NCBI GenBank assembly: GCA_021779535.1
Contig: JAJYAM010000022.1
Coordinates: forward strand, 1 to 36,471
Reading direction: 5' to 3'
Length of the DNA stretch: 36,471 nt
Origin: Pseudomonadota bacterium
GTDB taxonomy: Bacteria > Pseudomonadota > Gammaproteobacteria > Steroidobacterales > Steroidobacteraceae
Under the pieces are notes generated by a model. The model did not search any database and had not been told where the DNA came from. It saw only the letters and a list, made by a program, of their open reading frames with translations. Below, piece by piece: positions 9,247 through 30,424 of this stretch (positions are counted from its first letter, which is position 1; each line of letters begins with the position of its first letter). The position numbers and the translations under genes were made by a program.

Positions 9247-11175
9247 TTACTCGCCGAGACCCATCTCGATGTAGCCGGTCGGACACACGTCGTGACAGAC
9301 GTGGCAGCCGATGCAGCGGCTGTAATCGGTGAACACGTAGCGGCCGATCGCATGCTGCGCCTTGGGCACCTTCTTCACCGCCTTTTGCGGGCAATAGACC
9401 ACGCAGTTGTCGCACTCGACGCACAGCCCGCAGCTCATGCAGCGCTTGGCCTCGGCGACCGCCTGTTCCGCGAGCAAGGTCTCGATGCGCTCGCCGCCGA
9501 CCGCGAAGACCTCGGCGAGGCGCCGTTCCTTGCGTTCGATGCGTGGCTCCGGGGCGTAATGCCCGAGGAACAGATCCGACGACTTGATGATCTCGCGCTC
9601 GGCCCGGTCGTCGAAGTTGTGCACGGCGAACCCGGCATCGCAGGTCCCGCGCACCGCGTCGTGCGCGTAGTCGGTCAGCTCGAGCCCCGCATGATGCAGC
9701 GCCCGGAGCAGATCGAACTGGTGCTTGTCCACCTTCGGGCGCTTCGCGGGCTGGGCGCCGGCCAGGTAGGCGTCGATCCCTTCCGCGGCGATCGAACCGT
9801 GGCCGATCGCGCTCGTCAGCAGATGCGGCGTCACGATATCGCCGCCGACGAAGTGCCCGGGATGACCGGGAACCTCGAACAGCGCATCGGCGCTGATCGC
9901 ATCGCGGCCGTTGTTGAGCGCCTCGAGGCCGGTCAGGTCGCCCTTCTGGCCGACCGCGAAGATCACCAGGTCGCCGTCGACTTCGAACTCGGCGCCGCCG
10001 TCGATGCGCACGGGTTGGTTCTTCTCGACGCGACACGGCGCATAACGCACGCCCCGGGCATTCCCGTCGCCGTCCAGCAGGATCCGCACCGGCATCACGC
10101 CGCCGTGCAAATCCACGTTCAGCGAGCGCGCATCCGCAACCTCGCGCGGCGACGCCTGGATGTTCTCCAGCGGAAAGATCGTCGTCAACGCCACCCGGGC
10201 GCCGCCGAATGCGGCCTGCGCGGTCACCATGTCCGCGGTGTAGGTCAGCGGTTTGCCCGGAGCCCCGGGATCCTGGCCCGCGAGCTTGCGAGCGACCGTG
10301 GTGACGTCGATCGAGGTGTCGCCGCCCCCGATCACGATGATGCGCTTCGGTACCGCGCTGAGCAGTCCGGCGTTGAACGCCCGCAGGAATTCGATGCCGT
10401 CGACGCAATTCGGCGCATCCGCGCCCGGGATCGGCAGCTTGCGGCCGAGCCGCGTGCCGATACCCCAGAACACGGCGTCGTAGTCGCGGGCGAGCTCGTC
10501 GAGGCCGAGGTCCCGGCCGACACGGCAATTCGCGCGCACCTCGACGCCCATCTCGAGAATGCGCCGCACTTCGCCGTCCAGCACCGCCGCGGGCACGCGA
10601 TAGCGGGGCACGCCATAGCGCAACATCCCGCCGAGCTCGGGCTTCTCCTCGATGATCGTCGGGCGGTGACCGAGACGGCGCAACTGATAGGCGCAGGACA
10701 GGCCGGCCGGACCACCGCCGACCACGGCGACCTTCTTGCCGGTTTCGTCGACCGGCGGATCGAAGCGGTAGCCGGCGGCGAGCGCGGTGTCGCCGATGAA
10801 CTGCTCGACCGCGTTGATCCCGACGTGATCGTCCCGCTCGTTGCGATTGCAGCCCTTCTCGCAGGGCGCGGGACAGACGCGGCCCATCACCGCGGGGAAC
10901 GGATTGGCACGGGTGAGGCGGCGGAACGCGTACTCCTGCCACGCCTGGCCGGCGGACGGCGTGTCGAGTCCGCGCACGATGTCGAGCCAGCCGCGGATGT
11001 CCTCGCCCGAGGGGCAGCTCCCCTGGCAGGGCGGCGTGCGCTGCACGTAGGTCGGACACTTGTGCGACTGGCCGGCCTGGAAGATCGCTTCCCGCCAGGA
11101 CCGCCAGGTCGCATCGCCCTCGCGGTAGCGGCGGAAGGTCGACTTCGCGCCCGGGTCTTGCACCGATGAGGCCAT
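9247..11175 (-). CDS. dsrL: DsrL, NAD(P)H:acceptor iron-sulfur flavoprotein
   Basis: A 642-residue protein related to the small subunit of glutamate synthase. The N-terminal iron-sulfur region has CPTYVQRTPPCQGSCPSG and VCPAPCEKGC. An FAD-binding fold (VAVVGGGPAGLSCAYQL) and a pyridine-nucleotide fold (IIVIGGGDTSIDV) follow. The C-terminal extension carries two [4Fe-4S] sites, CVECDNCVVYCPQKA and CIGCHVCHDVCPTGY, preceded by a further Cys group (CMSCGLC). DsrL takes electrons released by DsrAB during sulfur oxidation and reduces NAD(P)+, and its gene is a strong marker of oxidative dsr systems. The ATG at 11175 has GGGAG about 10 bases upstream. It is 33 bases downstream of dsrK, placing a cytoplasmic enzyme between genes of the membrane complex as in Allochromatium. 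Confidence 0.95.
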   Translation of the reverse strand: MASSVQDPGAKSTFRRYREGDATWRSWREAIFQAGQSHKCPTYVQRTPPCQGSCPSGEDIRGWLDIVRGLDTPSAGQAWQEYAFRRLTRANPFPAVMGRVCPAPCEKGCNRNERDDHVGINAVEQFIGDTALAAGYRFDPPVDETGKKVAVVGGGPAGLSCAYQLRRLGHRPTIIEEKPELGGMLRYGVPRYRVPAAVLDGEVRRILEMGVEVRANCRVGRDLGLDELARDYDAVFWGIGTRLGRKLPIPGADAPNCVDGIEFLRAFNAGLLSAVPKRIIVIGGGDTSIDVTTVARKLAGQDPGAPGKPLTYTADMVTAQAAFGGARVALTTIFPLENIQASPREVADARSLNVDLHGGVMPVRILLDGDGNARGVRYAPCRVEKNQPVRIDGGAEFEVDGDLVIFAVGQKGDLTGLEALNNGRDAISADALFEVPGHPGHFVGGDIVTPHLLTSAIGHGSIAAEGIDAYLAGAQPAKRPKVDKHQFDLLRALHHAGLELTDYAHDAVRGTCDAGFAVHNFDDRAEREIIKSSDLFLGHYAPEPRIERKERRLAEVFAVGGERIETLLAEQAVAEAKRCMSCGLCVECDNCVVYCPQKAVKKVPKAQHAIGRYVFTDYSRCIGCHVCHDVCPTGYIEMGLGE

Positions 11176-11208: not shown

Positions 11209-12705
11209 TCAAGAACTCGTGCCCAATCGGATCGCATTGCCCACGAGCTGATGCACGCTCACGACGCTGTCCATTGGAATCCCGTAGTACGGCAGCACCT
11301 TGGTGAACTGGCTCTTGCAGATCGCGCAGATCGCCGCCATGTGCGTGACGCCGTGCTCCTGCCGCACCTCGTGCAGCGCTTGCACGCGCGGCAGCGCGCC
11401 TTTGACGCGCAACTCGATCAACTCGTCGGTCAGCAGGCCGCCCCCGCCGCCACAGCAGAAGGTCTTCTCGCCGATGGTGTCGGGTGCCATGTCGAAATAA
11501 TGGTTGCAGCTCGCCTTGATGAGCGCCCGCGGCAACACGAACTGTCCGCCGGGCAGATCACCCATGCGCGTCGCCCGCGCGACGTTGCAGGAATCGTGGA
11601 AGGTGACCTTCATGTGGTCGTTCGCTTCCTTGTCGAGCTTGAGCGCGCCGCGGCGGATCAGGTCGTAGGTGAACTCGACGATGTGCTGGGGCACCGGATA
11701 GCGGGGATCGAGGAAGTCGAACGGACCGGCGAGCGTATTCCAGAAGCCGTAGGCGACCCGCCACGCGTGGCCGCATTCGCCGACGACGATGCGCTTGACC
11801 TTGAGGTCGATCGCCGCCTGGCGGATGCGCAGCGCGACCTTGCGCATCTGGGCGTAATTGCCGATGAACATCGCGAAGTTGGCCGCCTCGGACGCGTAGG
11901 AGCTCAAGGTCCAGCGGACACCGGCCTGATGGAACACCTTCGCATAGCCGATCAGCCCGTCGATGTGCGGCTCGGCGAAGAAATCGGCGGACGGCGGGAT
12001 CAGCAGGACTTCGGCGCCCTCGACGTCGAGCGGGAAGCGCACGTCGACGCCGGTGGCCTCTTTCACGTCCTCCTCGAGCCCCTCGAGCGTGTTCGCGAGC
12101 GCCGGCCCCGGCAAGCCGAGGTTGTTTCCGATCGCGTGGACCTTGGCGATGATCTCGTTGCAGTACTTCTGTCCCACCCCGATCTCGTCGAGGATCTCGC
12201 GCGCGGCCATCGAGATCTCCGCCGTATCGATGCCGTAGGGGCAGAACACCGAGCAGCGCCGGCACTGGGAGCACTGATGAAAATACCCGTACCACTCGTC
12301 GAGGAGCGCCGCATCGAGGTCGCGCGCGCCGACGAGCCTCGGGAACAGTTTCCCGGCGAGCGTGAAGTGCCGCCGGTAGACGCTGCGCAACAGATCCTGG
12401 CGCGCGACCGGCATGTTCTTCGGGTCGCCGGTGCCGAGGAAGTAATGGCATTTGTCCGTGCAGGCGCCGCATTTGACGCACGAATCCAGGTGGACGCGCA
12501 ACGACCGGTACTTCCCGAGCAGGTCGCCGAGCTTGGCGACCGCGACCCGTTCCCAGTCCGGCACCAACGCCTCGGGGAAGCCGAGCGCCTGCTGATGCCG
12601 GGGTGCCGCCTTGAACGGCGCGCTCTTCGCCATGGCGCCGGGTCGCAGGTCGGGCGTCCGCAGGTAGTCACGCAGCGCCGGGACTTCGAAATCCGTCTTC
12701 GCCAC
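11209..12705 (-). CDS. dsrK: DsrK, HdrD-like catalytic subunit of DsrMKJOP
   Basis: A 498-residue cytoplasmic iron-sulfur protein. Two [4Fe-4S] motifs lie near the N-terminus, CVKCGACTDKC and CSQCRRCSVFCPYG. Two CCG-type domains characteristic of heterodisulfide reductase HdrD follow (HDSCNVAR, FCCGGGGGL, and the later ICAICKSQF). These fit a subunit that handles the DsrC thiol/trisulfide or disulfide while exchanging electrons with DsrM. The GTG at 12705 is preferred: it lies two bases past the dsrM TAG stop, has GAGGTG just before it, and gives MAKTDFEVPAL. The frame extends upstream only inside dsrM. Confidence 0.94.
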   Translation of the reverse strand: MAKTDFEVPALRDYLRTPDLRPGAMAKSAPFKAAPRHQQALGFPEALVPDWERVAVAKLGDLLGKYRSLRVHLDSCVKCGACTDKCHYFLGTGDPKNMPVARQDLLRSVYRRHFTLAGKLFPRLVGARDLDAALLDEWYGYFHQCSQCRRCSVFCPYGIDTAEISMAAREILDEIGVGQKYCNEIIAKVHAIGNNLGLPGPALANTLEGLEEDVKEATGVDVRFPLDVEGAEVLLIPPSADFFAEPHIDGLIGYAKVFHQAGVRWTLSSYASEAANFAMFIGNYAQMRKVALRIRQAAIDLKVKRIVVGECGHAWRVAYGFWNTLAGPFDFLDPRYPVPQHIVEFTYDLIRRGALKLDKEANDHMKVTFHDSCNVARATRMGDLPGGQFVLPRALIKASCNHYFDMAPDTIGEKTFCCGGGGGLLTDELIELRVKGALPRVQALHEVRQEHGVTHMAAICAICKSQFTKVLPYYGIPMDSVVSVHQLVGNAIRLGTSS

Positions 12706-12706
12706 G

Positions 12707-13453
12707 CTACACCTCGCCGGCGCCGCCGCGCTCGAGTCGCGCCGCCCACGGCGCCAGATGCCGCCGCTCGCGAGCATCGTCCGCCTGATTGCGCGTCGGG
12801 CTGAAGAATATTCCCGGTGCGTGCAGGAGCTTGCTGAACGGGAACACGATCAACAGCACCGCGACCAGGGTCAGGTGCGCGAGCAGCAGCGGATTGCCCG
12901 GCAGCGGTTGCCAGTCGAGATATTCGAGCCCCAGCACGAAGACCTTGAACGACACGATGTCGGTGCGCTCCAGCAGCTCGATCGAGAATCCCGACAGCCC
13001 GGTGGCGAGCAACAGCAGCAGCATCAGATAGTCCGACGGTCCGCTGACGTAACGCACGCGCGCGACGAGCAGCCGGCGCCCGAGGAGCCCGGCGAGCCCG
13101 GCCAGCATCGCCATGCCGCCGTAGACGCCGAACGGCTGCACCAGGGTCACCCAGGTGCCGATCGGCTGCAGGAAATATCGAAGATGCCTCAGCAACTCGA
13201 GCAGCAGTCCCAGGTGGAACGCCGCCGCGAAGATCCAGGTCCACTTGTCCGACTTGAACAAGCTCTCGAACAGCACGACCTCGCGCGCGACCCGGCCGGC
13301 CGCGCCGAGCCGCGTCACCGGGGCCGGCGTCGTCGGGATCTTCAGCGGCGCCGGCGTACGCGCATAGCCGTAGATCCGCCAGCCCGTTCCGACGACGAAT
13401 ATCCCGGCCGCGGCGTACAGCAACAGCGCGTAGGTCACGGTCAGGAGCGGCAT
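12707..13453 (-). CDS. dsrM: DsrM, membrane cytochrome b of DsrMKJOP
   Basis: A 248-residue NarI-like membrane protein with about five to six hydrophobic helices (for example YALLLYAAAGIFVVGTGWRI and YLMLLLLLATGLSGFSIEL). Histidines such as those in AAAFHLGLLLELLRHLRY and LAHLTLVAV are candidate heme b ligands. It anchors DsrK and exchanges electrons with the quinone pool. The ATG at 13453 follows a 72-base gap after dsrC, the longest gap inside the operon, which holds a perfect palindrome. This suggests a step in expression between dsrC and the membrane complex. Confidence 0.92.
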   Translation of the reverse strand: MPLLTVTYALLLYAAAGIFVVGTGWRIYGYARTPAPLKIPTTPAPVTRLGAAGRVAREVVLFESLFKSDKWTWIFAAAFHLGLLLELLRHLRYFLQPIGTWVTLVQPFGVYGGMAMLAGLAGLLGRRLLVARVRYVSGPSDYLMLLLLLATGLSGFSIELLERTDIVSFKVFVLGLEYLDWQPLPGNPLLLAHLTLVAVLLIVFPFSKLLHAPGIFFSPTRNQADDARERRHLAPWAARLERGGAGEV

Positions 13454-13484
13454 CGATCGCGCCTCTGCGCCGACGGAACCGGGC

Positions 13485-13506
13485 GTGGCCGGCGCGCGCC
13501 GGCCAC
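13485..13506 (-). promoter_or_regulatory. Perfect 22-bp palindrome between dsrC and dsrM
   Basis: The eleven-base half-site GTGGCCGGCGC is followed immediately by its exact reverse complement. Flanking C/G and G/T pairs extend the possible stem to about 13. It lies in the dsrC-dsrM gap with no T-run on either side. In RNA it would be a very stable hairpin just 3' of dsrC, fitting protection of dsrC mRNA or partial termination. A protein-binding operator is the alternative. Confidence 0.5.
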
Positions 13507-13525
13507 GTCGCCCCGCCCCGGGCGG

Positions 13526-13864
13526 TCAGATGCAGCCGGTCGGCTTCGGCAATCCGGCATACCGGCACGCCTGCTTGGCGGGACCGTACGGGAAGAGCTC
13601 GTAGAGGTATTTGCTGTTGCCCTTCTCGGGACCGAGCTTCTTGCCGATGGCCTTGGTCAGCACCCGGATCGCCGGCGCGACCTGGTACTCGGCGTAGTAG
13701 TCGCGCAGGAAATTGATCACTTCCCAGTGATTCTCGGTGAGGGTGAGGGTGTCCTCGGCCGCCATCACGTTCGCGACGTCCTCGTTCCAGTCCCCGAGGT
13801 TGACCAGATAGCCCTCCTCGTCGACCTCCAGTTCCTTGCCCTTCACTGCGACTGCGGATGTCAT
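13526..13864 (-). CDS. dsrC: DsrC sulfur-carrier protein
   Basis: A 112-residue protein of the DsrC/TusE family. The flexible C-terminal arm carries both functional cysteines, Cys100 (KQACRYAG) and the penultimate Cys111 (PKPTGCI), so it is true DsrC rather than TusE, which has only the penultimate one. In sulfur oxidisers DsrEFH loads sulfur onto DsrC, the persulfide is presented to DsrAB, and DsrMKJOP processes the product. GGAGG lies six bases before the ATG, the strongest ribosome-binding site of the operon, consistent with high abundance. The body contains the family signature ENHWEVINFLRDYY. Confidence 0.97.
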   Translation of the reverse strand: MTSAVAVKGKELEVDEEGYLVNLGDWNEDVANVMAAEDTLTLTENHWEVINFLRDYYAEYQVAPAIRVLTKAIGKKLGPEKGNSKYLYELFPYGPAKQACRYAGLPKPTGCI

Positions 13865-13920: not shown

Positions 13921-14229
13921 TCAGATCCAGGCCTGGACATGGTGGTATTCGACGGCGAGATCGACGAAACCGCCGTAATCGACCACTTCGACGCCCGGGA
14001 TCAGCTGCTCGGCGGTAAAACCACGCGCCGCCAGATCCGGTCCGAGCACGTAGATCCGCCGCTGCCTCGCCGCCTCCGTCAACGTCGCGGCGGTCGTGCC
14101 CGCCGCCAATGCGCCGTACACCGCATCTTCGATCAGCAGCACGCCGCACCCCGGACGGGACAGCCTCAGGCACGATTCCAGGTCGCGCGTTTGCAGCGGA
14201 GATTTGTTCGTGGTGTGCAGCACTGCCAT
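13921..14229 (-). CDS. dsrH: DsrH, sulfurtransferase subunit
   Basis: A 102-residue protein of the DsrH/TusB family. The conserved cysteine is Cys20 (DLESCLRL), the same number as in the Allochromatium protein. DsrE, DsrF and DsrH form an E2F2H2 hexamer that receives sulfur from carriers such as TusA or rhodanese and passes it to DsrC. It lies 13 bases downstream of dsrF and 56 bases upstream of dsrC. Confidence 0.93.
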   Translation of the reverse strand: MAVLHTTNKSPLQTRDLESCLRLSRPGCGVLLIEDAVYGALAAGTTAATLTEAARQRRIYVLGPDLAARGFTAEQLIPGVEVVDYGGFVDLAVEYHHVQAWI

Positions 14230-14242
14230 CTGGATTGCCCCT

Positions 14243-14632
14243 TCAGAACGCGAGGACGACGTCCTGCCGCTCCATCAACGCGCCGAGCTCCGCGGAGCCC
14301 AGCACCTCCACCGGCACGAGCAGATCGTCGACGGTGAGCCCGCGCGCCTCGAGCGATTCGCGTTCGACGTAGAGCTTCTCGACGTCGTAGTCCGCGAGCG
14401 CCCGGTAGGTCGAAGAGAAGTTCTTCTGGCCGATGCCCTGGGTCCGCTGGCCTTTCTTCAGCTGGTAGACCCCGTCGTCGAGGAACACCAGGCTCACGTC
14501 CTGATCGAACGCCGCGCCGATCAGCACCACCTCGAGCGACTCCAGCGCGTAGATCGTCCCGTAGGGCGCCTTGCGGTTCACGATCATGAATCGCTTGACC
14601 TGGCCGGCGCCGCCTTCCCGCTCTTCGCTCAT
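14243..14632 (-). CDS. dsrF: DsrF, sulfurtransferase subunit
   Basis: A 129-residue DsrE/F-like protein (IYALESLEVVLIGAAFDQDV, LVFLDDGVYQL). It contains no cysteine at all, in line with DsrF being a structural partner in the DsrEFH hexamer, while DsrE Cys78 and DsrH Cys20 carry the chemistry. The ATG at 14632 follows the dsrE stop by eight bases. The 12 or so residues before the core (MSEEREGGAGQV) are an acidic, probably flexible tail. Confidence 0.92.
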   Translation of the reverse strand: MSEEREGGAGQVKRFMIVNRKAPYGTIYALESLEVVLIGAAFDQDVSLVFLDDGVYQLKKGQRTQGIGQKNFSSTYRALADYDVEKLYVERESLEARGLTVDDLLVPVEVLGSAELGALMERQDVVLAF

Positions 14633-14640
14633 GCTCGTCC

Positions 14641-15000
14641 TCAGTCGCCGAAAACCACCAGACGGTCGGCCTCGATGCCGGCCTGGATCAGCTGGCCGAG
14701 GCCGGAGATGTGGAAGCCCGGCGCCAGCAGCTCGTTCTTGATTCCACGGCGCAGCGCCGCGGCGACGCACACCACCAGGTCGATGTCGTGCGCCGCCGCC
14801 AGCGCCGACCACTGGCGGGTGACGTTGCGATCGTCCTGCGGCGGCTCGGTCAGCTTGTTCGCGTTGTTCACCCCGTCGTTGTAGAAGAACACGCGATAGA
14901 TCCCGTGCCCTTTGGCGAGCGCGGCGACGGCGAATTGGTAGGCGGAGTCGGACGCCTGATGCTGATACGGTCCCTCGTTCACGAGAATGCCGAACTTCAT
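14641..15000 (-). CDS. dsrE: DsrE, catalytic sulfurtransferase subunit
   Basis: A 119-residue protein starting MKFGILVNEGPYQHQASD with the active cysteine at position 78 (IDLVVCVAAALRRG), exactly the residue number of the characterised Allochromatium DsrE. It is the subunit of DsrEFH that exchanges sulfur with DsrC. The presence of dsrEFH shows an oxidative rather than sulfate-reducing dsr system. Its ATG overlaps the dsrB stop as ATGA. Confidence 0.95.
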   Translation of the reverse strand: MKFGILVNEGPYQHQASDSAYQFAVAALAKGHGIYRVFFYNDGVNNANKLTEPPQDDRNVTRQWSALAAAHDIDLVVCVAAALRRGIKNELLAPGFHISGLGQLIQAGIEADRLVVFGD

Positions 15001-16097
15001 GGTCTGCCGCCGCCGGCCGAATGGCGGATGTGGGTCGACGCGTTCAAGCTCGCGCGGCCGCCGCGCCAGTTGTCGAAGTGGTAGGACGTGAACGGCAGGC
15101 CGGTGAGCTCGAAGAAGCGCGGCCAGCCGATGCGTTCGATCCACTCGCCGATGCGTTCCCAGTCCCGCGCGTCGCCCTGATAGGTGCGCAGGATCTTCTT
15201 GACCGCGTCCGCCACTTCCGGCCACCGCGGCGGATTGTTCGGCAACCCGGCGACGACCAGCTTGTGGAACGTCGGGCGCGACCGCGCGTTGGAATGCTTG
15301 CCGCCGACCCAGATCGCGATCTTGGTGTATTCCGGATCGTTGATCTGCATCGGCGGGCACGGCGCGTAGCAGGCGCCGCAGCAGATGCACTTCCGCTCGT
15401 CCACCTCCAGCGTCGGCTTGCCATTGACCACCGCGGGTCGGATCGCCGCGACCGGGCAACGCGCGACCACGGCGGGACGCTCGCAGACGTTCGCCACCAG
15501 ATCGTGGTTGATCTTCGGCGGCTTGGTGTGCTGGATGTTCACCGCGATGTCGCCCTGCCCGCCGCAATTGATCTCGCAGCAGGACGTGGTGATCCCCACG
15601 CGGTTCGGCATGCGCTCGTGGATGAATTCCTCGTGCAGTTCGTCCATCAGCGCCTTCACGACGCCCGAGGCGTCCGTCCCCGGGATGTCGCAATGCAGCC
15701 AGCCCTGCGTATGGGAGATCATGCGCACCGAATTGCCGGTACCGCCGACCGGAAAACCGGCGGCTTCGAGCGCGGCGATCAGCGCCGGCACCTTGGCCTG
15801 CTCGGCGACCATGAACTCGATGTTGCTGCGGATGGTGAAGCGCACGTAGCCGTCGGCATGCCGGTCCGCGATGTCGCAGAGCGTGCGCACGCTGAACACG
15901 TCCATTTGCCGCTGGGTCCCGGCGCGAACCGTCCAGACCTGATCGCCGCTCCTGGCGACGTGGTGCAGCACGCCGGGACGCGGTCGATCGTGCCATCGCC
16001 ACTGCCCGTAGTTCTTCTTGAGCAGCGGGTGCATGAACTGGAAGGCGTCCGGAACGCCGCTCTCGACCGGCATGCGGGGCTTCGCGGGAGTGCTCAT
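14997..16097 (-). CDS. dsrB: Dissimilatory sulfite reductase beta subunit (oxidative type)
   Basis: A 366-residue protein. The siroheme/[4Fe-4S]-binding cysteines are seen around Cys136 (LHCDIPG) and in TSCCEINCGG (Cys173, Cys174, Cys178). An inserted ferredoxin domain has CICCGACYAPCP (from Cys237), with Cys214 in VARCPVAAI. DsrB forms the alpha2beta2 enzyme with DsrA and carries the catalytic site; in sulfur oxidisers the enzyme works in reverse, releasing sulfite from DsrC-bound sulfur. The ATG at 16097 overlaps the dsrA stop as ATGA, and the stop overlaps the dsrE start in the same way. Confidence 0.96.
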   Translation of the reverse strand: MSTPAKPRMPVESGVPDAFQFMHPLLKKNYGQWRWHDRPRPGVLHHVARSGDQVWTVRAGTQRQMDVFSVRTLCDIADRHADGYVRFTIRSNIEFMVAEQAKVPALIAALEAAGFPVGGTGNSVRMISHTQGWLHCDIPGTDASGVVKALMDELHEEFIHERMPNRVGITTSCCEINCGGQGDIAVNIQHTKPPKINHDLVANVCERPAVVARCPVAAIRPAVVNGKPTLEVDERKCICCGACYAPCPPMQINDPEYTKIAIWVGGKHSNARSRPTFHKLVVAGLPNNPPRWPEVADAVKKILRTYQGDARDWERIGEWIERIGWPRFFELTGLPFTSYHFDNWRGGRASLNASTHIRHSAGGGRP

Positions 16098-17371
16098 CGA
16101 TCCTCCTGCGCGGATGGCGCGCCGTGGCGCGCATTCCATTTGCGGGCTTCCTCGTCCCATCCGTCGGTGCGCACGTACGGGTTGGTGCGCGGATGCAGCA
16201 GCATGCTCGGATCGGGGTCGAGACCCACCGCCTCGAGGAAATTCGCGAAACCGATGCGCTCGATCATTTCGCCGGTTCGCTCGTGTTCCAGCGCGTTCTC
16301 GGCGAAGAAGCCGATGATGTTCTGGGCCAGCTCGTGCAGCCTCGCGAAGTCCGCGTCGGTCTCGAGCTTCATGAAGGGCACGATCACGGTGCCGAACAGA
16401 TCCCCGATCTTGAGCGTCCGCTTGCCGCCGAGGAGGATGGTGACGCCGCGGTCCTTGCCGGGACTCAGCGCTTTCGTCATCACGTTGATGCAATGCATGC
16501 AGCGGACGCAATTGCGATTGTCGATCGTGAGGCTGTCGTCTTCCTCGAGCGACACGCTGCGGGTCGGGCACCGGGTGACGACGTTGTCGATCACCGCCTG
16601 ACGGCCCCGCAGGGCGACGAACTGGCGCACCTCGCGCTGGTCGATCTCGATGTCGTCCCGCCAGGTTCCGATCACCGCCATGTCCGCGCGTTGGATCGCG
16701 TTCATGCAGTCGTTGGGGCAGCCCGAGAACTTGAACTTGAACTTGTAGGGCAGGGCCGGACGGTGGATGTCGTCGACGAACGCGTTGATGATCTGGGTGT
16801 GTGCGCGGATCTCGTCGTAGCACGAGTGTTCGCAGCGCGCGTGTCCGACGCAGGACATCGAGGTGCGCACCGCCGGTCCCGCGCCTCCGAGGTCGTAGCC
16901 CATCTCGTTCAGCTCGTCGAAGCAGGGCTGCACGTTCCGGCTGCTGCAGCCCTGGAACATGATGTCGCCGCTCTGACCGTGCAAGGTGATCAAGCCGGAC
17001 CCGTGCTTCTCCCACACGTCGCAGAGCCGGCGCAGCGCGTCCGTGGTGTAGTGCATGCCGGGTGCCGGCATGATCCTCAGCGTGTGGAATTCGGCCGCCT
17101 CTGGAAATTCGGGCTTGCCGTCCTTCCCGCGCAACTCGGTGAAGCGCGGAATGACGCCGCCCCCGTAGCCGATCACGCCGACGGTGCCGCCTTTCCAGTA
17201 GCCCCGCTTGGTCTCGTAGGAGCGCTCGAGTTGCCCGAGCAGGTGTTTCATCATGCCGGCGTACGGCTTGTCCTGCGCCGCGGCGAGGCGCTTGAGGCCG
17301 GCGACGAAGCTCGGCCACGGACCCTTCTCGAGCTGGTCCAGCAGGGGCGTTTGCGGAGTTTTCGCGCTCAT
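16094..17371 (-). CDS. dsrA: Dissimilatory sulfite reductase alpha subunit (oxidative type)
   Basis: A 425-residue protein. The siroheme-cluster signature is the Cx5C pair Cys174/Cys180 (SCVGHARC) and the Cx3C pair Cys218/Cys222 (FSGCPNDCMNA). The ferredoxin domain uses Cys268 (VTRCPTRS) and Cys288, Cys291 and Cys294 (CVRCMHC). DsrA is the structural partner of DsrB. This is the first gene of the operon. The ATG at 17371 begins MSAKTPQTPLLDQLEKGPWP, a typical oxidative DsrA N-terminus, although the ribosome-binding site is weak. The frame is open to about 17506, but that extension has no family character. The 120-base gap upstream is shared with the divergent Cas6-like gene. Confidence 0.96.
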   Translation of the reverse strand: MSAKTPQTPLLDQLEKGPWPSFVAGLKRLAAAQDKPYAGMMKHLLGQLERSYETKRGYWKGGTVGVIGYGGGVIPRFTELRGKDGKPEFPEAAEFHTLRIMPAPGMHYTTDALRRLCDVWEKHGSGLITLHGQSGDIMFQGCSSRNVQPCFDELNEMGYDLGGAGPAVRTSMSCVGHARCEHSCYDEIRAHTQIINAFVDDIHRPALPYKFKFKFSGCPNDCMNAIQRADMAVIGTWRDDIEIDQREVRQFVALRGRQAVIDNVVTRCPTRSVSLEEDDSLTIDNRNCVRCMHCINVMTKALSPGKDRGVTILLGGKRTLKIGDLFGTVIVPFMKLETDADFARLHELAQNIIGFFAENALEHERTGEMIERIGFANFLEAVGLDPDPSMLLHPRTNPYVRTDGWDEEARKWNARHGAPSAQEDR

Positions 17372-17491
17372 GGTGTTGGTGCCGCCGTTTCGTCGGGGGA
17401 GACCCCAGGGCGGACTGTAGAGGTGCGCGGCGGCGGTCGATATTGCGCCGATGGGATAGGGGACCGTGCCGCGATCTATCTCCGACGGGAT
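17372..17491. promoter_or_regulatory. Divergent promoter region between dsrA and the Cas6-like gene
   Basis: This 120-base gap must hold the start signals of both the dsr operon (minus) and the Cas6-like gene (plus). On the minus strand TCGACC and TACAGT resemble -35 and -10 boxes but sit only 15 bases apart. A GGGG-AGA-CCCC hairpin lies at 17396-17406. No regulator site could be assigned with confidence. Confidence 0.4.
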
Positions 17492-18217
17492 ATGGCCGGG
17501 ATTCATCCGAGCGCGAAGCTTGACCGGGTGCGGTCACGCTACTGGCAGGACGACGACGACGGCGCCGCGGTCACCGTGGCCAGGGCGGCCGACCTCGCGT
17601 TCGGCCTGTCGGGGCGGTCGCTCCCCGCCGACTACGCCGCGCAGCTCGCTCGTGCCGTGATCGAGGCGTTGCCCTGGTTGCCCGACGTGCGCGGCGCCGG
17701 CCTGCGCCTCGCGTTCGGCGCCGCGGAGGGCAACGGCTGGCAGCGCGACGAAACCGATGGCGCACTGATCTATCTGCCGAGGCGGGCGCGGCTGGTGCTG
17801 CGGTTGCCGCCGGAACGGCTCGACGCGGCGCGCGCGCTGGCCGGCCGAACGCTCGCGGTCGCCGGCGACCCGCTGCGGGTCGGTGAATCGCGCGTGGCCG
17901 CGCTCGCGGCCGCGGATACCCTGTATGCCCGCGATGTCGTGGACGACACCGATGACGAGTGCCTCTTCCTCGAGTGGATCGCGCGGGCGATCGGCGCGCT
18001 CGGCGCCACGGGACGAAAGATCATGTGCGGCAGGAGTCGGCGCATCGCCGCGCCGGACGGCCGGGTACGCACGCGCAGCGTGATGGTGGCGGACCTCGCG
18101 CCTCGCGATTCGATCGCATTGCTCGCGCAGGGCATCGGTCCCGGCCGGCTGATGGGCTGTGGACTGTTCGTGCCCTACAAGCGGGCGAATCCGCCCGCAC
18201 ACGGCGCCGGCGAATAG
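17492..18217 (+). CDS. Cas6/Cmx6-like RAMP-fold protein, solitary, divergent from dsr
   Basis: A 241-residue protein whose pattern fits the Cas6/Cmx6 family (type I-MYXAN CRISPR RNA-processing RAMPs). The core begins at about residue 33 (ADLAFGLSGRSLPADY), with PWL, then RRARLVLRLPPER (97-109), then a terminal glycine-rich loop GIGPGRLMGCGLFVPYK (214-230) of the Cas6 kind. The first 30 residues are an extra tail with an acidic run (QDDDDG). The only histidines are His5 and His237, both in the tails, so the general-base histidine of most Cas6 nucleases appears absent; where I would expect it (LPxDH) there is LPADY. There is no CRISPR array or other cas gene in the window. It is the only plus-strand gene before 22.5 kb and ends seven bases from the convergent cysG stop. 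Function unknown; RNA binding is an inference. Family assignment is by pattern memory. Confidence 0.7.
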   Translation: MAGIHPSAKLDRVRSRYWQDDDDGAAVTVARAADLAFGLSGRSLPADYAAQLARAVIEALPWLPDVRGAGLRLAFGAAEGNGWQRDETDGALIYLPRRARLVLRLPPERLDAARALAGRTLAVAGDPLRVGESRVAALAAADTLYARDVVDDTDDECLFLEWIARAIGALGATGRKIMCGRSRRIAAPDGRVRTRSVMVADLAPRDSIALLAQGIGPGRLMGCGLFVPYKRANPPAHGAGE

Positions 18218-18224
18218 CCGCCGG

Positions 18225-19643
18225 TCAGGCCGTCCGCAGCGCCGTTGCTTGCACCGAGCCGGCCGGCTCGAACCAGGCGAAGCGCTCGTGCAGGCGCACC
18301 ACCTCACCGATGATCAACAACGTCGGCGGACGCATCGTCACCTCCGCGGCTTTCGCCGGCAGGCTCGCCAGGTCGCCGATGAGCACCCGCTGGCTCTGCA
18401 AGGTCCCATCCTGCACCAACGCGGCCGGGGTCGCGGCCGACAGACCCGCGCCGATCAGCCGCTCGCAGATCGACCCGAGCGCGTGCAGCCCCATGTACAC
18501 GACGAGGGTCTGGCGCGGTTCGGCCAGGGCGCGCCAGTTGAGCTCCCCGCCGTCCTTGAGATGTCCCGGAATGAACACGCAGCTATGCGCGCAATCCCGA
18601 TGGGTGAGTGGAATGCCGGCGTAGGCGGCGCAGCCCGAGGCCGCCGTCACCCCCGGCACGATCTGGAACGCAATACCCGCGTCGGCCAGCGCATCGGCCT
18701 CTTCGCCGCCGCGCCCGAAGATGAATGGATCGCCCCCTTTGAGCCGCAGCACGCGCTTGCCGTCGCGCGCCAGGCGCACCAGCAACCGGTTGATCTGCTC
18801 CTGCGGCACGCTGTGCTCGCCGCTCGCCTTGCCGACGTAGATGCGCTCGGCGCCGCGGTGCGCGAAGTCGAGAATGGCCGGTGCGACCAGCCGGTCGTAG
18901 ACCACGACGTCGGCCTGCTGCATCAGCCGCAGCGCGCGGAAGGTGAGCAAGTCCGGATCGCCCGGGCCGGCGCCCACCAGGTAGACCTCGCCGACCGACA
19001 GCGAGCCTGGCGTGTCCTGTTGCAACGCAACTTCCATCGCGATTTTGGCGGCCCGCTCGCGCCCCGTCAGCACGAGTTCCGCCACCGGACCCTGCAGCGC
19101 CTCTTCCCAGAACCGGCGGCGTTGCGCGAGCGTGCCGAAGCGCCGTTTCACGCGATCCCGAAACGTCTCGGCCAGCGTCGCGAGCCGGCCGTAGGCGGCG
19201 GGCAGCATCGTCTCCAGCCGCGTTCGCAGCAGGCGCGAGAGCACCGGCGCGGCCCCCCCGGAGGACACCGCGACGATCACCGGCGACCGATCGACGATCG
19301 ACGGGACGATGAAGCTGCACAACTCGGGCGCATCGACGACGTTCACCGGAATCGCACGCTCCCGGCAGCGTCTCGAGACCTCGCCGTTGAGCGCCCCGTC
19401 GTCGGTGGCGGCGATCACGAGCGTGCAGCCGTCGATGTCTTCGGGCCGGAATTCCCGTGCGTGATGGGTCAGCCGACCCGCGTCGCGATACCGCGCGAGA
19501 CTCCGACCGAGTTCGGGCGCCACCACCGTGATCGCGGCGTTCGCGCGCACCAGGAGATCGACCTTGCGCGCGGCGACCTCGCCGCCACCGACCACGAGAC
19601 ACGGCCGCGAGCGGACATCGAAGAAGATCGGCAGGAAATCCAT
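18225..19643 (-). CDS. cysG: Siroheme synthase (trifunctional CysG)
   Basis: A 472-residue fusion. The N-terminal half is the precorrin-2 dehydrogenase/ferrochelatase (CLVVGGGEVAARKVDLL, with SSGGAAPVLSRLLR). The C-terminal half is uroporphyrinogen III C-methyltransferase (VYLVGAGPGDPDLLTF, LRLKGGDPFIFGRGGEE, VPGVTAASGCAAYAGIPLTH). It converts uroporphyrinogen III to siroheme, the cofactor of DsrAB, so its position near the dsr operon makes functional sense. The ATG at 19643 gives MDFLPIFFDV, the usual start, with GGTGG just upstream. It is probably expressed from its own promoter in the 168-base gap or with iscA. Confidence 0.95.
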   Translation of the reverse strand: MDFLPIFFDVRSRPCLVVGGGEVAARKVDLLVRANAAITVVAPELGRSLARYRDAGRLTHHAREFRPEDIDGCTLVIAATDDGALNGEVSRRCRERAIPVNVVDAPELCSFIVPSIVDRSPVIVAVSSGGAAPVLSRLLRTRLETMLPAAYGRLATLAETFRDRVKRRFGTLAQRRRFWEEALQGPVAELVLTGRERAAKIAMEVALQQDTPGSLSVGEVYLVGAGPGDPDLLTFRALRLMQQADVVVYDRLVAPAILDFAHRGAERIYVGKASGEHSVPQEQINRLLVRLARDGKRVLRLKGGDPFIFGRGGEEADALADAGIAFQIVPGVTAASGCAAYAGIPLTHRDCAHSCVFIPGHLKDGGELNWRALAEPRQTLVVYMGLHALGSICERLIGAGLSAATPAALVQDGTLQSQRVLIGDLASLPAKAAEVTMRPPTLLIIGEVVRLHERFAWFEPAGSVQATALRTA

Positions 19644-19811
19644 GTGCCACCGCCGCTGTGACGCCTGTGCAGCGGATATTGGAAACGCGGGGCGAAGTCC
19701 CTGGAATATCTCCAAAGGAACATCCCGCGCGACCGGCGGGGATAGGATTTCGACGCGACCGGCACGACGCGACCGGCACGCCCGAGGGAGCCGATCGCCC
19801 CCCCCGGTCAG
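19644..19811. promoter_or_regulatory. Intergenic region upstream of cysG
   Basis: A 168-base non-coding gap between iscA and cysG. It holds a 14-base tandem repeat at 19751-19778, a partial third copy near 19728-19737, and an AT-richer stretch at 19670-19725 with GGATATTGG and GGAATATCTCC elements. No clear -35/-10 pair was found. It is the likely site of the cysG promoter. Confidence 0.35.
19751..19778. repeat. 14-bp tandem repeat (two copies) upstream of cysG
   Basis: CGACGCGACCGGCA occurs twice with no spacer, and the related CGCGACCGGC occurs again at 19728-19737. It could be an operator array or simple slippage in GC-rich DNA. Confidence 0.6.
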
Positions 19812-20135
19812 TCAGACGCTAAAGCTCTCGCCGCAGCCGCACTCGCTCTTCGCTTTGGGGTTGTGGAACTTGAACGCCTCGTTCACGCCCTGCTTCACGA
19901 AATCGACGACGGTCCCGTCGATCATCGGCAGGCTCGCGAGGTCGACGACGACCGTGACGCCGCCGACCTCGAACACCGTGTCGTCGGCGCCGACCGCATC
20001 GGCATAATTCACGACGTAGGCGAACCCCGAGCATCCGGTCTTCTTGACCCCGAGCCGCAGCCCGAGCCCGCTGCCCCGCTTCGCAAGATGGGAACGTACC
20101 CGTTCGGCCGCCGCCTCCGTCAAAACGATCGCCAT
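19812..20135 (-). CDS. iscA: IscA, A-type iron-sulfur cluster carrier
   Basis: A 107-residue protein, the same length as E. coli IscA, with the three cluster-binding cysteines at 35 (KTGCSGFAY), 99 and 101 ([10 protein letters not shown]). It receives or delivers Fe-S clusters to apoproteins. It is not DsrR, the IscA-like protein of Allochromatium dsr clusters, because DsrR lacks these cysteines. The ATG at 20135 is preceded by GGAG elements. A 76-base gap separates it from the upstream IscU-like gene, longer than elsewhere in this cluster. Confidence 0.93.
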
Positions 20136-20211
20136 CGCTCCAATGCCTCCGAGTGACTCTTTACGAGTGATACATAACACGACCCGGGTCGGGACGCACG
20201 TCACATACGTC
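20136..20211. promoter_or_regulatory. AT-rich gap with palindrome upstream of iscA
   Basis: This gap is conspicuously AT-richer than its surroundings and includes the perfect palindrome GACCCGGGTC at 20181-20190 and, on the minus strand, a TGTTATGTATCACT stretch that could hold a -10 box. It may give iscA its own promoter. I see no convincing IscR site. Confidence 0.3.
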
Positions 20212-20589
20212 TCATTTTCGCGCAGCGGCGGCCGCGGCCCGCCACGCATCCTCGATCACCAGCAAGCGGCCGAGTTTCTCCACCGGCACGTCGAACGACC
20301 GCCGCAGCGCGTCGACCGGCTGCAGCAATTCGGCCGACGGGATGTGCCCCACCGCCTGCTCCGCGACCCACGCCGCGACCGCGATCGTGTGCGGACAGCC
20401 GAACGCGAGGAATCGCGCCTCGACGATCCGCCCGGGAGGATCCGCCGTGCACGCGACCCGCAGATCGAATCGCACCCAGGTGCCGAGCGACCGGCTCCCG
20501 GCGGTACCCGACGCGACGCCGGGCCCCTCGAGCGTTCCGGCGCCCGGCGCCTGCTCGAAATACCGGCGGGTCAGGGCGCTGTAACGCAT
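20212..20589 (-). CDS. IscU-like scaffold homologue lacking most cluster ligands
   Basis: A 125-residue protein of the IscU/NifU-N fold, recognised from its start ([18 protein letters not shown] against E. coli YSEKVIDHYENPRNVGS), [15 protein letters not shown] and the final IEDAWRAA. Of the three conserved IscU cysteines only the equivalent of Cys63 remains (Cys65). The Cys37 position reads Leu35 in AGSRSLGT (normally GAPACGD), the Asp39 position reads Thr37, and the His105-Cys106 pair reads Gly-Arg ([10 protein letters not shown]). It also has an unrelated Cys47. A normal scaffold role is therefore doubtful; a sulfur-accepting or regulatory partner of IscS is possible. The start overlaps the iscS end by 19 bases. 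Confidence 0.75.
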
Positions 20590-21752
20590 CCGCCACCGAT
20601 CCGCCTGAGCCGTGACAAGGCCGCGCCGACCGCCTCGATCGCCTCCTCGACGTCCGCGGCCGAGGTCGAGCGTCCGAGGCCGAACCGCAGGCTCGCCTCC
20701 GCGAGCCGCTCGTCGCGCCCGAGCGCGCGCAGCACGTACGACGGTTCGCCGCTCGCGGACGTGCACGCCGACCCGGTCGACACCGAGATCCGCGGCGCGA
20801 CCGCCGCGAGCAGGCTCTCTCCCTCGACGCCGGCGAACGACACGTTCAGGATCGCGGCCACCGTGTCCTGCGGCGCTCCGTTGCGGATCGCGCCGCCGTG
20901 GGCCTCGAGGCCGCACCACAGCCGCTCGCGCAGCGCGGCGAGCCGGGTCGCTTCGGCCTCACGCTGCGCCACCGCGAGCGCGAACGCGGCGGCCATGCCG
21001 ACCACCTGGTGGGTCGCGACGGTCCCCGAGCGCAGCCCCCGCTCCTGCCCGCCGCCGAACTGGCGCGGCTCGATCCGCACCCCGCGGCGGCGTGACACCA
21101 GCAGCGCGCCGACGCCCTTCGGTCCGTAACTCTTGTGGGCGGACAGCGACACGAGATCGGCGCCGCCTGCTTTGAAATCGAGCGCGGTCTTGCCGACGCT
21201 CTGGGCCGCATCGACGTGCAGCCGCGCGCCGCCGTGCCGTTCGCAGACCGCCGCGAACGCGGCGACGTCCTGAACCGTCCCGATCTCGTTGTTCACGTGC
21301 ATCAGCGAGACCAGCACCGTATCGGCACGCAGCGCCGCGGCGAGGCGCTCGGGCGCGATCCGGCCACGCTCGTCCGGCGTCAGGTAGGTGACCTGCCAAC
21401 CGCGCCGTTCGAGCTCGTGGCACGGATCGAGCACGGCCTTGTGCTCGGTGCGCGCGGTGACCAGGTGCCGGCCGCGCGGCCGCGCATGCTCCGCGACGCC
21501 GAAGATCGCGAGGTTGTCCGCCTCGGTCGCCCCGGAGGTGAACACCACCTCGTCCGGATCCGCACCGACCGCGGCGGCGACCGCCGCGCGCGCGGCCTCG
21601 ACCCGCTCGAGCGCCGCCTCGCCATGGAAATGCCCGGCGGAAGCCGGATTGCCGAACACGCCGTCCGCGCCCAGGCATCCGGCCATCGCCGCGGCGACGC
21701 GCGGGTCCACCGGCGTCGTCGCCGCATGGTCGAGATAGACCGGCGGGCTCAT
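20571..21752 (-). CDS. iscS: Cysteine desulfurase IscS
   Basis: A 393-residue PLP enzyme that removes sulfur from cysteine and passes it as a persulfide to cluster assembly, tRNA thiolation and other acceptors. The PLP lysine is Lys207 (SAHKSYGPKG), the active cysteine is Cys330 in the class I loop STGSACTSASGEP, and the N-terminus YLDHAATTPVD is typical. The ATG at 21752 overlaps the trmJ stop as ATGA. No iscR lies between trmJ and iscS, and hscB, hscA, fdx and iscX are absent downstream, so this is a reduced isc cluster. In a dsr organism IscS could also feed the sulfur relay. Confidence 0.94.
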   Translation of the reverse strand: MSPPVYLDHAATTPVDPRVAAAMAGCLGADGVFGNPASAGHFHGEAALERVEAARAAVAAAVGADPDEVVFTSGATEADNLAIFGVAEHARPRGRHLVTARTEHKAVLDPCHELERRGWQVTYLTPDERGRIAPERLAAALRADTVLVSLMHVNNEIGTVQDVAAFAAVCERHGGARLHVDAAQSVGKTALDFKAGGADLVSLSAHKSYGPKGVGALLVSRRRGVRIEPRQFGGGQERGLRSGTVATHQVVGMAAAFALAVAQREAEATRLAALRERLWCGLEAHGGAIRNGAPQDTVAAILNVSFAGVEGESLLAAVAPRISVSTGSACTSASGEPSYVLRALGRDERLAEASLRFGLGRSTSAADVEEAIEAVGAALSRLRRIGGGCVTAP

Positions 21753-22480
21753 TCGCCGCGTTCCGGCGCCGCGCGCCGGCGCTTGCCCGAGACCGCGCTC
21801 AGGATCCCGCGCAGCAGGTTGACCTCGTTCCGGTCGAGGCCGGTCCGGTTGAACAAGCGGCGCAGCCGCTCCATCAGATACCCGGTGCGGTCCTCGAACT
21901 CGATCTCCTCGAGCACCCGCGCGAGATGCGCGTAGAAGTGCTCGAGCTCCGCGGCCGCCGCGGGCGGCGCCTCCCATTGCTGCTTGGTCACCGGCCGTTC
22001 GCGGGCGACGAGCAGCTCGTAGGTCAGCAACTGCACCGACATCGCGAGATTCAGCGAGGAATACGCGGGGTTCGCCGGTATCCGCACCAGCTGCGCGCAA
22101 TGCTCGAGGTCCTCGTTCGCGAGCCCGAAGCGCTCCGAGCCGAACATCAGCGCTGCGCGCGCCTCCCCGGGAAGCGCGTCGATCCGCGCCGCGGTCTCGC
22201 GCGGCGTCGCGAACTCCCACGTGAGGTTGCGCGGCCGCGCGGTCGTGCCCGCGACGAATGCGCAGTCCGCGACCGCGTCCGCGACCGAATCGACGACGCG
22301 CGCGGCCGCGAGCACGTCGCCGGCGCCGGCCGCGAGCGCGACCGCGTCCGGGTGCGGGAACGACCTCGGCCGCACCAGCACGAGGTCCGCGAGGCCCATG
22401 GTCTTCATCGCGCGCGCGACCGACCCGACGTTGCCGGGATGGCTCGGCTCGACGAGGACGATGCGAACGAGGTCGGTCAT
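21749..22480 (-). CDS. trmJ: tRNA (cytidine/uridine-2'-O-)-methyltransferase TrmJ
   Basis: A 243-residue SPOUT methyltransferase that 2'-O-methylates position 32 in the tRNA anticodon loop. Signatures: VRIVLVEPSHPGNVGSVARA at the start, the LMFGSERFGLANEDLEHC loop and IPANPAYSSLNLAMSVQLL, which form the knotted SAM site. It typically precedes the isc cluster and is divergent from suhB in gammaproteobacteria, as here. The start at 22480 leaves only 24 bases to suhB. A TAGAAT box on the minus strand (22494-22489) would start transcription very close to the ATG. Confidence 0.94.
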   Translation of the reverse strand: MTDLVRIVLVEPSHPGNVGSVARAMKTMGLADLVLVRPRSFPHPDAVALAAGAGDVLAAARVVDSVADAVADCAFVAGTTARPRNLTWEFATPRETAARIDALPGEARAALMFGSERFGLANEDLEHCAQLVRIPANPAYSSLNLAMSVQLLTYELLVARERPVTKQQWEAPPAAAAELEHFYAHLARVLEEIEFEDRTGYLMERLRRLFNRTGLDRNEVNLLRGILSAVSGKRRRAAPERGE

Positions 22481-22504: not shown

Positions 22505-23302
22505 ATGCAACCGCTGCTGAACATAGGAATCCGCGCGGCGCGGCGCGCCGGGGACTCGATCATCCGGAGCCTCGGCCGTCTCGACTCGTTGAAGGTCGAC
22601 ACCAAGGGGCGCAACGACTTCGTGACCGACGTCGATCGGCGCGCCGAAGCCGAGATCATCGCGACCGTGCGCCGCAGTCATCCCGACCACGCGTTCCTCG
22701 GCGAGGAGAGCGGCCGGAGCGGCGACGGCGAATTCCTCTGGATCATCGATCCGCTCGACGGCACGACGAATTTCCTGCACGGCTTCCCGGTGTTCGCGGT
22801 CTCGATCGCGGTCGAGCATCGCCACCGCATCGAGCACGCGGTCGTCTACGATCCGATGCGCCAGGAGCTGTTCACCGCCTCGCGTGGCGACGGCGCGCAG
22901 CTCGACGGCAAGCGGATCCGGGTCAGCTCGCAGCGCGGCCTCGAGGGCTCGCTGATCGGCACCGGCTTCCCGTTCCGCGAGGGCGGGGGCACGATCGACG
23001 ACTATCTCGCGATCCTGAAGGCGGTGATGGCCGTGGCCGCCGGCGTGCGCCGGCCCGGCGCCGCCGCGCTCGATCTCGCCTACGTCGCGGCCGGCCGTCT
23101 CGACGGATTCTGGGAATTCGGCCTGAAGCCCTGGGATACCGCCGCGGGCACGCTGCTGATCCGCGAAGCCGGCGGCCGCGTCGGCACGCCGGGTGGCGGC
23201 GAGTACGCGCTCGGGCCGAACGTGATCGCCGGCAACCCGAAGGTGTATGCGGCGCTGCTCGACGCGATCGGACCGCTGACGCCCGCCGCCCTGCGCGACT
23301 GA
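22505..23302 (+). CDS. suhB: Inositol-1-monophosphatase family protein SuhB
   Basis: A 265-residue Mg-dependent phosphatase. The metal-binding motifs are FLGEESGRSG, IIDPLDGTTNF and, near the C-terminus, LKPWDTAAGTLLIREAGG. In gammaproteobacteria SuhB hydrolyses inositol phosphates in vitro and also assists rRNA transcription antitermination. Its position divergent from trmJ is the standard one. No ribosome-binding site is evident before the ATG, so translation may be leaderless or start poorly. A GC-rich hairpin follows the stop, facing the convergent permease gene. Confidence 0.93.
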   Translation: MQPLLNIGIRAARRAGDSIIRSLGRLDSLKVDTKGRNDFVTDVDRRAEAEIIATVRRSHPDHAFLGEESGRSGDGEFLWIIDPLDGTTNFLHGFPVFAVSIAVEHRHRIEHAVVYDPMRQELFTASRGDGAQLDGKRIRVSSQRGLEGSLIGTGFPFREGGGTIDDYLAILKAVMAVAAGVRRPGAAALDLAYVAAGRLDGFWEFGLKPWDTAAGTLLIREAGGRVGTPGGGEYALGPNVIAGNPKVYAALLDAIGPLTPAALRD

Positions 23303-30337: not shown

Positions 30338-30424
30338 GCCCGGATGGCGGAACTGGTAGACGCGCCGGACTCAAAATCCGGTGGTGGCGACATCGTGTGG
30401 GTTCGATTCCCTCTCCGGGCACCA
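30338..30424 (+). tRNA. tRNA-Leu (anticodon CAA)
   Basis: An 87-nucleotide class II tRNA. The acceptor stem GCCCGGA (30338-30344) pairs with TCCGGGC (30414-30420), followed by the A discriminator and an encoded CCA. The anticodon stem CCGGA/TCCGG (30365-30369 and 30377-30381) holds the loop CTCAAAA, giving anticodon CAA at 30372-30374, which reads UUG. The long variable arm and the GTTCGATTC T-loop are present. Confidence 0.97.

Follow-up and report, generated by a model that had tools for sequence, protein, structure and literature searches.

The stretch analysed here, called the window below (36,471 nucleotides in full), carries a dsr operon on its minus strand and, facing it on the plus strand, a gene that resembles the Cas6 genes of CRISPR systems. 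The features needed for the argument are as follows.

9247..11175, minus strand: dsrL-like gene (gene family shared with other dsr loci)
11209..12777, minus strand: dsrK-like gene (gene family shared with other dsr loci)
12707..13453, minus strand: dsrM-like gene (gene family shared with other dsr loci)
13526..13846, minus strand: canonical dsrC, product ending in GCI, the sole DsrC-family match in the genome (profile search)
16094..17371, minus strand: dsrA, first gene of the dsr operon (TIGR02064, 563.8 bits at 16127-17341; Pfam NIR_SIR)
17372..17491, no strand: divergent intergenic region of 120 bp common to dsrA (start codon at 17371) and the Cas6-like gene (sequence)
17492..18217, plus strand: gene of a Cas6-family (PF09559) protein of 241 aa (ORF and profile match)
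17528, plus strand: downstream GTG, possible alternative start of the Cas6-like gene (read from the sequence)
17633..17635, plus strand: codon of Tyr48, at the position of an invariant His of the relatives (alignment)
18131..18181, plus strand: C-terminal glycine-rich loop and last strand, GIGPGRLMGCGLFVPYK (sequence, alignment)
18225..19715, minus strand: sirohaem synthase gene (CysG-type), convergent with the Cas6-like gene (Pfam match)

The names dsrM, dsrK and dsrL are taken from the usual dsr gene order. The position given to the Cas6-like gene in a preliminary description of this DNA, between cysG and dsrA and with an upstream region shared with dsrA, is correct, the shared region being the 120 bp divergent gap. 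That no other plus-strand gene precedes 22.4 kb, as also described, is plausible. A codon-position filter returned one plus-strand ORF ahead of position 22505 (14096-14884, overlapping minus-strand dsr genes) and omitted the Cas6-like ORF itself, whose longest frame extends back through dsrA. At gathering scores, Rfam gives a single match in the window, a tRNA gene at 30338-30421 (plus strand).

The Pfam Cas6 model PF09559 matches the window protein over residues 34-230 with 177.6 bits (E 3.5e-52, cut-off 26.7), and several PADLOC Cas6 models match it as well. With the NCBIfam model TIGR02807 (cas6_cmx6) the window protein scores 98.6 bits, which is 0.25 bits under the cut-off of 98.85, and a core relative (L072) passes the same cut-off with 131.6 bits. 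By sequence, the solved chain closest to the window protein is 8fcj, a Cas6 from a type I-B CAST complex (E 3.5e-9 with the single sequence, 1.4e-24 with the family profile). In an AlphaFold2 model made with 57 relatives as input (mean pLDDT 85.5, pTM 0.79), the order of strands and helices and the Foldseek matches point to two RRM (ferredoxin-like) domains, the predicted Cas6 fold. The model matches 44 PDB chains at E <= 0.001, each of them from a CRISPR entry and mostly titled Cas6 or Cse3 (the titles of 8yha_B, 8yb6_B, 8zp7_D and 9j9e_C name the complex, not the chain); the best two are the Cas6 chains B of type I-B CAST complexes, with a top TM-score of 0.73/0.82 to 8fcu_B. The window protein also has a glycine-rich loop ahead of the last strand, GIGPGRLMGCG, a kind of loop that is named as a Cas6 feature in the available part of PMC3150331. 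The earlier assignment of 17492-18217 (plus strand) to the Cas6/Cmx6 family, together with the motifs quoted for it, is thereby upheld by the PF09559 score and by the CRISPR RNA-binding chains found by fold; the opposite outcome, no match to Cas6 models and no RAMP fold, occurred neither in the profile search nor in the predicted structure. Judged from its sequence, the gene at 17492-18217 is a member of the Cas6 family.

The gene had also been called solitary. In the window assembly (2.93 Mb in 127 contigs, 98.97% complete) there is one PF09559 gene, the profile search gave no Cas1, and no match to the Cas3 core rises above the cut-off (best 34 bits vs 102), so that the cas1 and cas3 expected of a type I-B (MYXAN) CRISPR-Cas system were not found in the assembly. 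No CRISPR array was seen at positions 14000-22000 of the window, where the direct repeats, among the 20 of 31 families listed, are dispersed copies. The word solitary holds for the CRISPR genes tested in the gene's own genome; it does not hold for most of the relatives examined, where the Cas6-like gene sits in a cassette.

The linkage to dsr was followed in 369 genomes of Gammaproteobacteria (one per species, the window's own included, and not independent of each other), where dsrA was scored as present at a best TIGR02064 E < 1e-30. PF09559 was found in 118 and dsrA in 119 of them: 111 hold both, 7 only PF09559, 8 only dsrA and 243 neither (odds ratio 482, phi 0.907), and the p-value of this co-occurrence is a guide only, because the sampled genomes share ancestry. 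Where both genes lie on the same contig, 82 of the 84 pairs are divergent neighbours 250 to 4511 bp apart, close pairs in any other orientation number zero, and the two remaining pairs are 41 and 517 kb apart; in 27 further genomes the two genes are on different contigs, several of these assemblies being fragmented. The exceptions to the co-occurrence look like assembly gaps: cassette genes are present in all seven Cas6-only genomes (L045, L046, L062, L063, L084, L176, L177), and in the three dsrA-only genomes inspected out of eight, dsrA or the cassette is near the end of a contig. Nearer to the window, among 31 genomes of its genus and family (chosen from 117 drawn relatives), dsrA is above the cut-off in exactly the four that match the window protein, and in the window clade the Cas6-like gene adjoins dsrA divergently in five of five genomes. 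A draw of 249 genomes over the phylum gave three matches, the window included, with only same-class genomes among those listed, and the two new matches also adjoin dsrAB. The Cas6-like gene, dsrA and a DsrC paralogue occur together, with no Cas1 match, in five genomes of 1.0-1.1 Mb (G155, G258, G370, G401, G465), a figure that refers to Cas6-bearing genomes only and gives no fraction of ~1 Mb genomes.

With both genes in 111 genomes and 82 of 84 pairs divergent within 5 kb, the association with dsr that had been suggested from position is recurrent and not that of a chance neighbour, and a scatter of homologues without any tie to dsr is not what was found. The PF09559 family occurs with dsrA and beside it, as would be expected of a dsr accessory; in this class the Cas6-like gene is a near-constant companion of dsr, with or without CRISPR. 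Its Cas6-family identity combined with the dsr linkage is, in our view, practically certain.

Gene maps of 45 loci (with the Cas6-like gene called in 41) and of 80 named-genome loci (the best 80 of 507, ranked by likeness to one core member) show a prevailing layout, in which dsrAB run in one direction and, in the opposite direction, follow genes for a TauD-like dioxygenase, a ~65-aa protein, sometimes a ~240-aa TPR-like protein, the Cas6-like protein, the DsrC paralogue and often a ~70-aa protein. Among the best 80 of 507 named loci, the small protein is present in 75, TauD in 71, the DsrC paralogue in 72 (on the strand of the Cas6-like gene in 64, on the opposite one in 8), the ~70-aa protein in 48 and the TPR-like protein in 30, and dsrAB lie within 6 kb of the Cas6-like gene in 54. 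When only the 52 named loci with the Cas6-like gene more than 5 kb into the locus are counted, 45 have divergent dsrAB and 7 have no dsrAB within 6 kb upstream. Measured by longest-ORF starts, a median of 2 nt separates TauD from the small protein and a median of 10 nt the small protein from Cas6, which suggests that the three belong to one operon and one transcript.

Pfam matches among the cassette partners were limited to TauD (74.8 bits) and DsrC (111.6 bits), the small protein and the TPR-like protein having none, and in profile searches of the PDB no match to the small protein, F13 or the TPR-like protein had an E-value under 0.28. The predicted model of the TPR-like protein is all-helical; it has no PDB match at E <= 0.001, and its matches start at E 0.018 and are largely to TPR and other helical-repeat proteins. 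The motif W-[H/Q]-TDG is present in 95 of 97 TauD-like proteins and the distal LH.R[T/S] in 69 of 97; the nearest named relatives of this enzyme, which should require oxygen, are small-molecule hydroxylases, weakly (36 bits, cut-off 400). Downstream of the cassette (L084:5377-9304, L069:3271-7196 and similar stretches) we observed a recurrent PKHD-type hydroxylase and a second 2OG-Fe(II) oxygenase, along with a DUF6866 (Sfum_1244 family) protein and two families without a Pfam name. One metagenome-assembled genome titled Halobacteria archaeon (L102) carries a dsr/Cas6-like cassette that is otherwise gammaproteobacterial, and is probably a mis-binned or mis-named assembly.

The DsrC paralogue of the cassette ends in RKGGY in 106 of 106 loci, of which 34 had entered the profile because of this tail and the other 72 had not, and 104 of the 106 have no Cys in the last 20 residues; canonical DsrC ends in GCV or GCI in 76 of 76. 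When matches reaching the last model position are counted, the paralogue with its tail is found in at least 109 of the 369 genomes, none of them outside the dsrA/Cas6 set among the matches listed: at least 105 of the 118 Cas6-bearing genomes and at least 4 of the 251 others, those four being dsrA-positive. The window genome has no second DsrC-family gene. DsrC homologues without these cysteines have been called RspA; no paper on homologues of this type was found in the open-access literature (in part among the best 15 of 71 matches).

The position of the putative active site was read from an alignment of 120 dsr-linked relatives, the window clade and six CRISPR-linked Cmx6 proteins from cas operons. 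A His just ahead of the first long RRM helix is present in 120 of 120 dsr-linked relatives and in six of six Cmx6 proteins, and again in L174 and L175, two dsr-linked proteins at a greater distance. The catalytic His of Cas6 follows the first strand according to the available part of PMC3150331, which fits the conserved His here, and the same source records a reviewer's doubt on the conservation of that residue; the conserved His of the relatives is probably catalytic, as far as the alignment can tell. The window protein and four relatives have Tyr in its place, and so the window protein (Tyr48) lacks the catalytic His of Cas6, a residue that is not universal in Cas6. Asn stands at the same position in PDB 8fcj chain B, the type I-B CAST Cas6. 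Two further His of the dsr clade (114/120 and 112/120 in the relatives) are replaced in the window clade, as is a Gln common to the dsr-linked relatives and CRISPR Cas6. Three residues, W3, W70 and K219 (L072 numbering), are invariant in the 120 relatives and absent from the CRISPR Cas6 aligned. No cassette partner stands beside the Cas6-like gene in the window or at the loci of its relatives, and among the dsr-linked relatives the window lineage is an odd, stripped-down exception. A locus can lose its neighbours and still keep the His, as is seen in two Cas6-alone loci (L061, L082) that group loosely with the window clade (98/79).

The preliminary description had further proposed that the protein binds or processes dsr mRNA or another RNA. 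This part found no direct support, so that the earlier interpretation is upheld in part: no common dsr hairpin was found, and the window copy has lost the His expected for cleavage. Intergenic gaps of seven classes were folded and compared with a coding control (mean z -0.04, n=132). The gap between Cas6 and the DsrC paralogue shows no unusual structure (mean z -0.26, 83 gaps), and that between the DsrC paralogue and F13 is mildly so (-1.13, 45 gaps); dsrH-dsrC (0.01, 55 gaps) and dsrK-dsrL (-0.11, 31 gaps) are followed by dsrA-dsrB (-1.49, 65 gaps), dsrB-dsrE (-2.05, 21 gaps) and dsrC-dsrM (-2.47, 65 gaps), which points to structure in part of the dsr gaps. Perfect hairpins with stems no shorter than 8 bp occur in 51 of 68 dsrC-dsrM gaps (five with a U-run) and in 36 of 69 dsrA-dsrB gaps (one with a U-run); the window has one in its dsrC-dsrM gap (13454-13525), and its nearest kin L011, L012 and L061 have none. 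In the hairpins of these two gaps from 25 genomes, the mean longest shared word was 4.68 within a genome vs 4.23 between genomes, a within-genome value reached in 48 of 500 permutations, which is barely above the between-genome level. Because little sequence is common within a genome, we do not claim these hairpins as Cas6 sites; the comparison and the gap folding revealed no hairpin sequence common to the dsr operons. The dsrC-dsrM hairpins are probably mRNA-stabilising or processing stems, the former being a simpler reading than Cas6 sites.

As the family is named after CRISPR proteins, we considered whether this is an ordinary CRISPR Cas6 which is solitary here and serves arrays elsewhere, or a CRISPR relic. 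The score of L072 above the TIGR02807 cut-off (131.6 vs 98.85) speaks for such a reading, against which stand the window genome without Cas1 and the distribution in the 369 genomes, where presence tracks dsrA and not Cas1 (PF09559 and Cas1 together in 50, PF09559 only in 68, Cas1 only in 85, neither in 166; p 0.13). Cas1 was not matched in 68 of the 118 genomes that bear Cas6, including five of 1.0-1.1 Mb. Moreover, in a maximum-likelihood tree of 65 proteins the dsr-linked proteins are split from the CRISPR-linked ones (plus one Gloeobacter protein) with support 100/99, the window clade having 100/100, with the bootstrap not fully settled. On the co-occurrence and the separate clade we reject a relic, and the reading as a whole is hardly credible. 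Decay is another matter in the window lineage, as a copy without the His and with a dN/dS 1.5-4 times that of dsrA could be drifting: dN/dS in the window clade is 0.23-0.39, compared with 0.08-0.16 for dsrA in the same genomes, and the gene is under purifying selection there, looser than dsrA. A reading of the window copy as what is left of a cassette in decay would agree with this higher dN/dS, with the lost His and conserved Gln, with the lack of a cassette partner at the loci of the window and its relatives and with the lack of the DsrC paralogue in the window genome; yet the frame is open in five genomes (one cut by a contig end), the dN/dS is well below 1, which disfavours a pseudogene, and the gene adjoins dsrA divergently in all five, so that we regard a remnant as quite improbable.

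A viral or plasmid origin was considered and set aside. In viral contigs, a pattern-based scan yielded 39 pattern matches and no relative, the window protein had no match in plasmids or phages, and with a core relative as query, seven cyanobacterial plasmid records were retrieved, all annotated Cas6/Cmx6. On a Gloeobacter morelensis plasmid (L167:5971-6762), a PF09559-type gene annotated Cas6/Cmx6 has no annotated cas neighbour within ~6 kb and lies near a phosphoadenosine-phosphosulfate-reductase-family gene and a cupin gene; this is possibly another non-CRISPR use.

The explanation that we prefer, with a probability of roughly 55%, is a dsr-pathway accessory of Cas6 origin that handles RNA. 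A clade of the Cas6 family would have left CRISPR to serve, in Gammaproteobacteria, the oxidative dsr pathway (reverse dissimilatory sulfite reductase) as a dedicated accessory. Its protein would most likely bind a specific RNA via its two RRM-type domains and, in most lineages, cut it, and the DsrC-like partner would link this RNA handling to sulfur flux or else to DsrAB/DsrEFH. In the window lineage the protein would most likely only bind RNA or play a structural part, because Tyr replaces the His on which classical Cas6 cleavage depends and the partners are not adjacent. The computation shows the family, the predicted fold, the dsr linkage, the cassette, the His conserved in relatives and lost here, and the purifying selection; RNA as the ligand, its cleavage, the partnership and what is controlled are parts that we infer. 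A Cas6 fold alone is no proof of RNA binding. The balance tips slightly towards an RNA-directed function; that dsr expression or activity is controlled through the DsrC-like partner is a tentative idea. More speculative is the full picture, in which the ancestors of dsr-bearing Gammaproteobacteria domesticated a Cas6-type ribonuclease a single time; it would provide, with the RKGGY DsrC paralogue and the dioxygenase, an RNA-based control of sulfur oxidation responsive to oxygen and sulfur, and would be kept by the window lineage in a non-cutting version.

Two other roles compete with that of an RNA-handling accessory of dsr. The fold may have been kept with a ligand other than RNA, the protein then serving the DsrC-like protein, DsrAB or DsrEFH as a scaffold or as an allosteric partner, for which argue the selection on the window clade without its His and the family's own invariant residues (W3, W70, K219); an invariant His common to CRISPR Cas6 in 120 of 120 others is hard to square with a pure scaffold, and the DsrC-like partner is absent from the window genome, which makes this role unlikely to us. 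DsrEFH and DsrC are related to TusBCD and TusE, and Tus proteins thiolate tRNA, so the Cas6-like protein and the DsrC paralogue might instead act in the sulfur chemistry of RNA, the former presenting tRNA or another RNA and the dioxygenase modifying it. This would be in line with the TusE/DsrC family membership of the paralogue, the motifs of the TauD-like protein (95/97 and 69/97) and the predicted RRM-type fold, but with no Cys in the last 20 residues of the paralogue in 104 of 106 loci, no persulfide would be carried there, and the TauD-like enzyme has as its closest named relatives, though weakly, small-molecule hydroxylases; we consider such chemistry likewise unlikely.

Oxidative dsr is a major sulfur-oxidation route, the gene list of which is usually taken as known. 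A dsr companion gene that 111 of the 119 sampled genomes with dsrA possess, usually within a cassette and kept by some ~1 Mb genomes, may, as a guess, have been hidden in databases by its CRISPR name; we suspect that those genes of the dsr-linked clade which, like L072, pass the NCBI Cas6/Cmx6 model are misnamed in sulfur oxidisers. The constant company of dsr, with or without CRISPR, suggests that an RNA protein of an immune system was taken over for sulfur metabolism, and the question which RNA, if any, a Cas6-type protein handles outside CRISPR is made testable. If the more speculative picture above is true, a CRISPR RNA-processing protein is at work in energy metabolism. No report of a Cas6-like gene tied to dsr was found in the titles and abstract starts listed from the open-access literature, in one case the best 40 of 118 matches, where the word Cas6 did not occur. 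In their available parts, PMC5728499, PMC10952691 and PMC7540712 deal with ordinary CRISPR-Cas genes, PMC3397948 and PMC11096372 deal with DsrC and type I-B CRISPR, and a term search in the available part of PMC11406059, on the evolution of dsr oxidation, finds no mention of CRISPR or Cas6.

The comparison with known systems bears on three of them. The known products of the dsr operon carry the letters M, K, L, J, O, P, N, R and S; the Cas6-like gene is likewise tied to the operon by gene content and position, but it is on the opposite strand and, unlike those genes, outside the dsr transcript, and no Cas6-like dsr product is named in the available passages. With the DsrC/TusE family (PF04358) the paralogue of the cassette has the DsrC-family domain in common (111.6 bits), whereas the cysteines of its C-terminal arm are replaced and its RKGGY end is invariant. 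The Cas6/Cmx6 of type I-B (MYXAN) systems and the type I-B CAST Cas6 (8fcj/8fcu) have the Pfam family, the fold and the glycine-rich C-terminal loop in common with the window protein, and the conserved His of CRISPR Cmx6 is common to the dsr-linked relatives, though not to the window copy. Unlike CRISPR Cas6/Cmx6, however, the dsr-linked clade tracks dsrA and not Cas1, has dsr genes as neighbours, stands as a clade of its own and has its own invariant residues.
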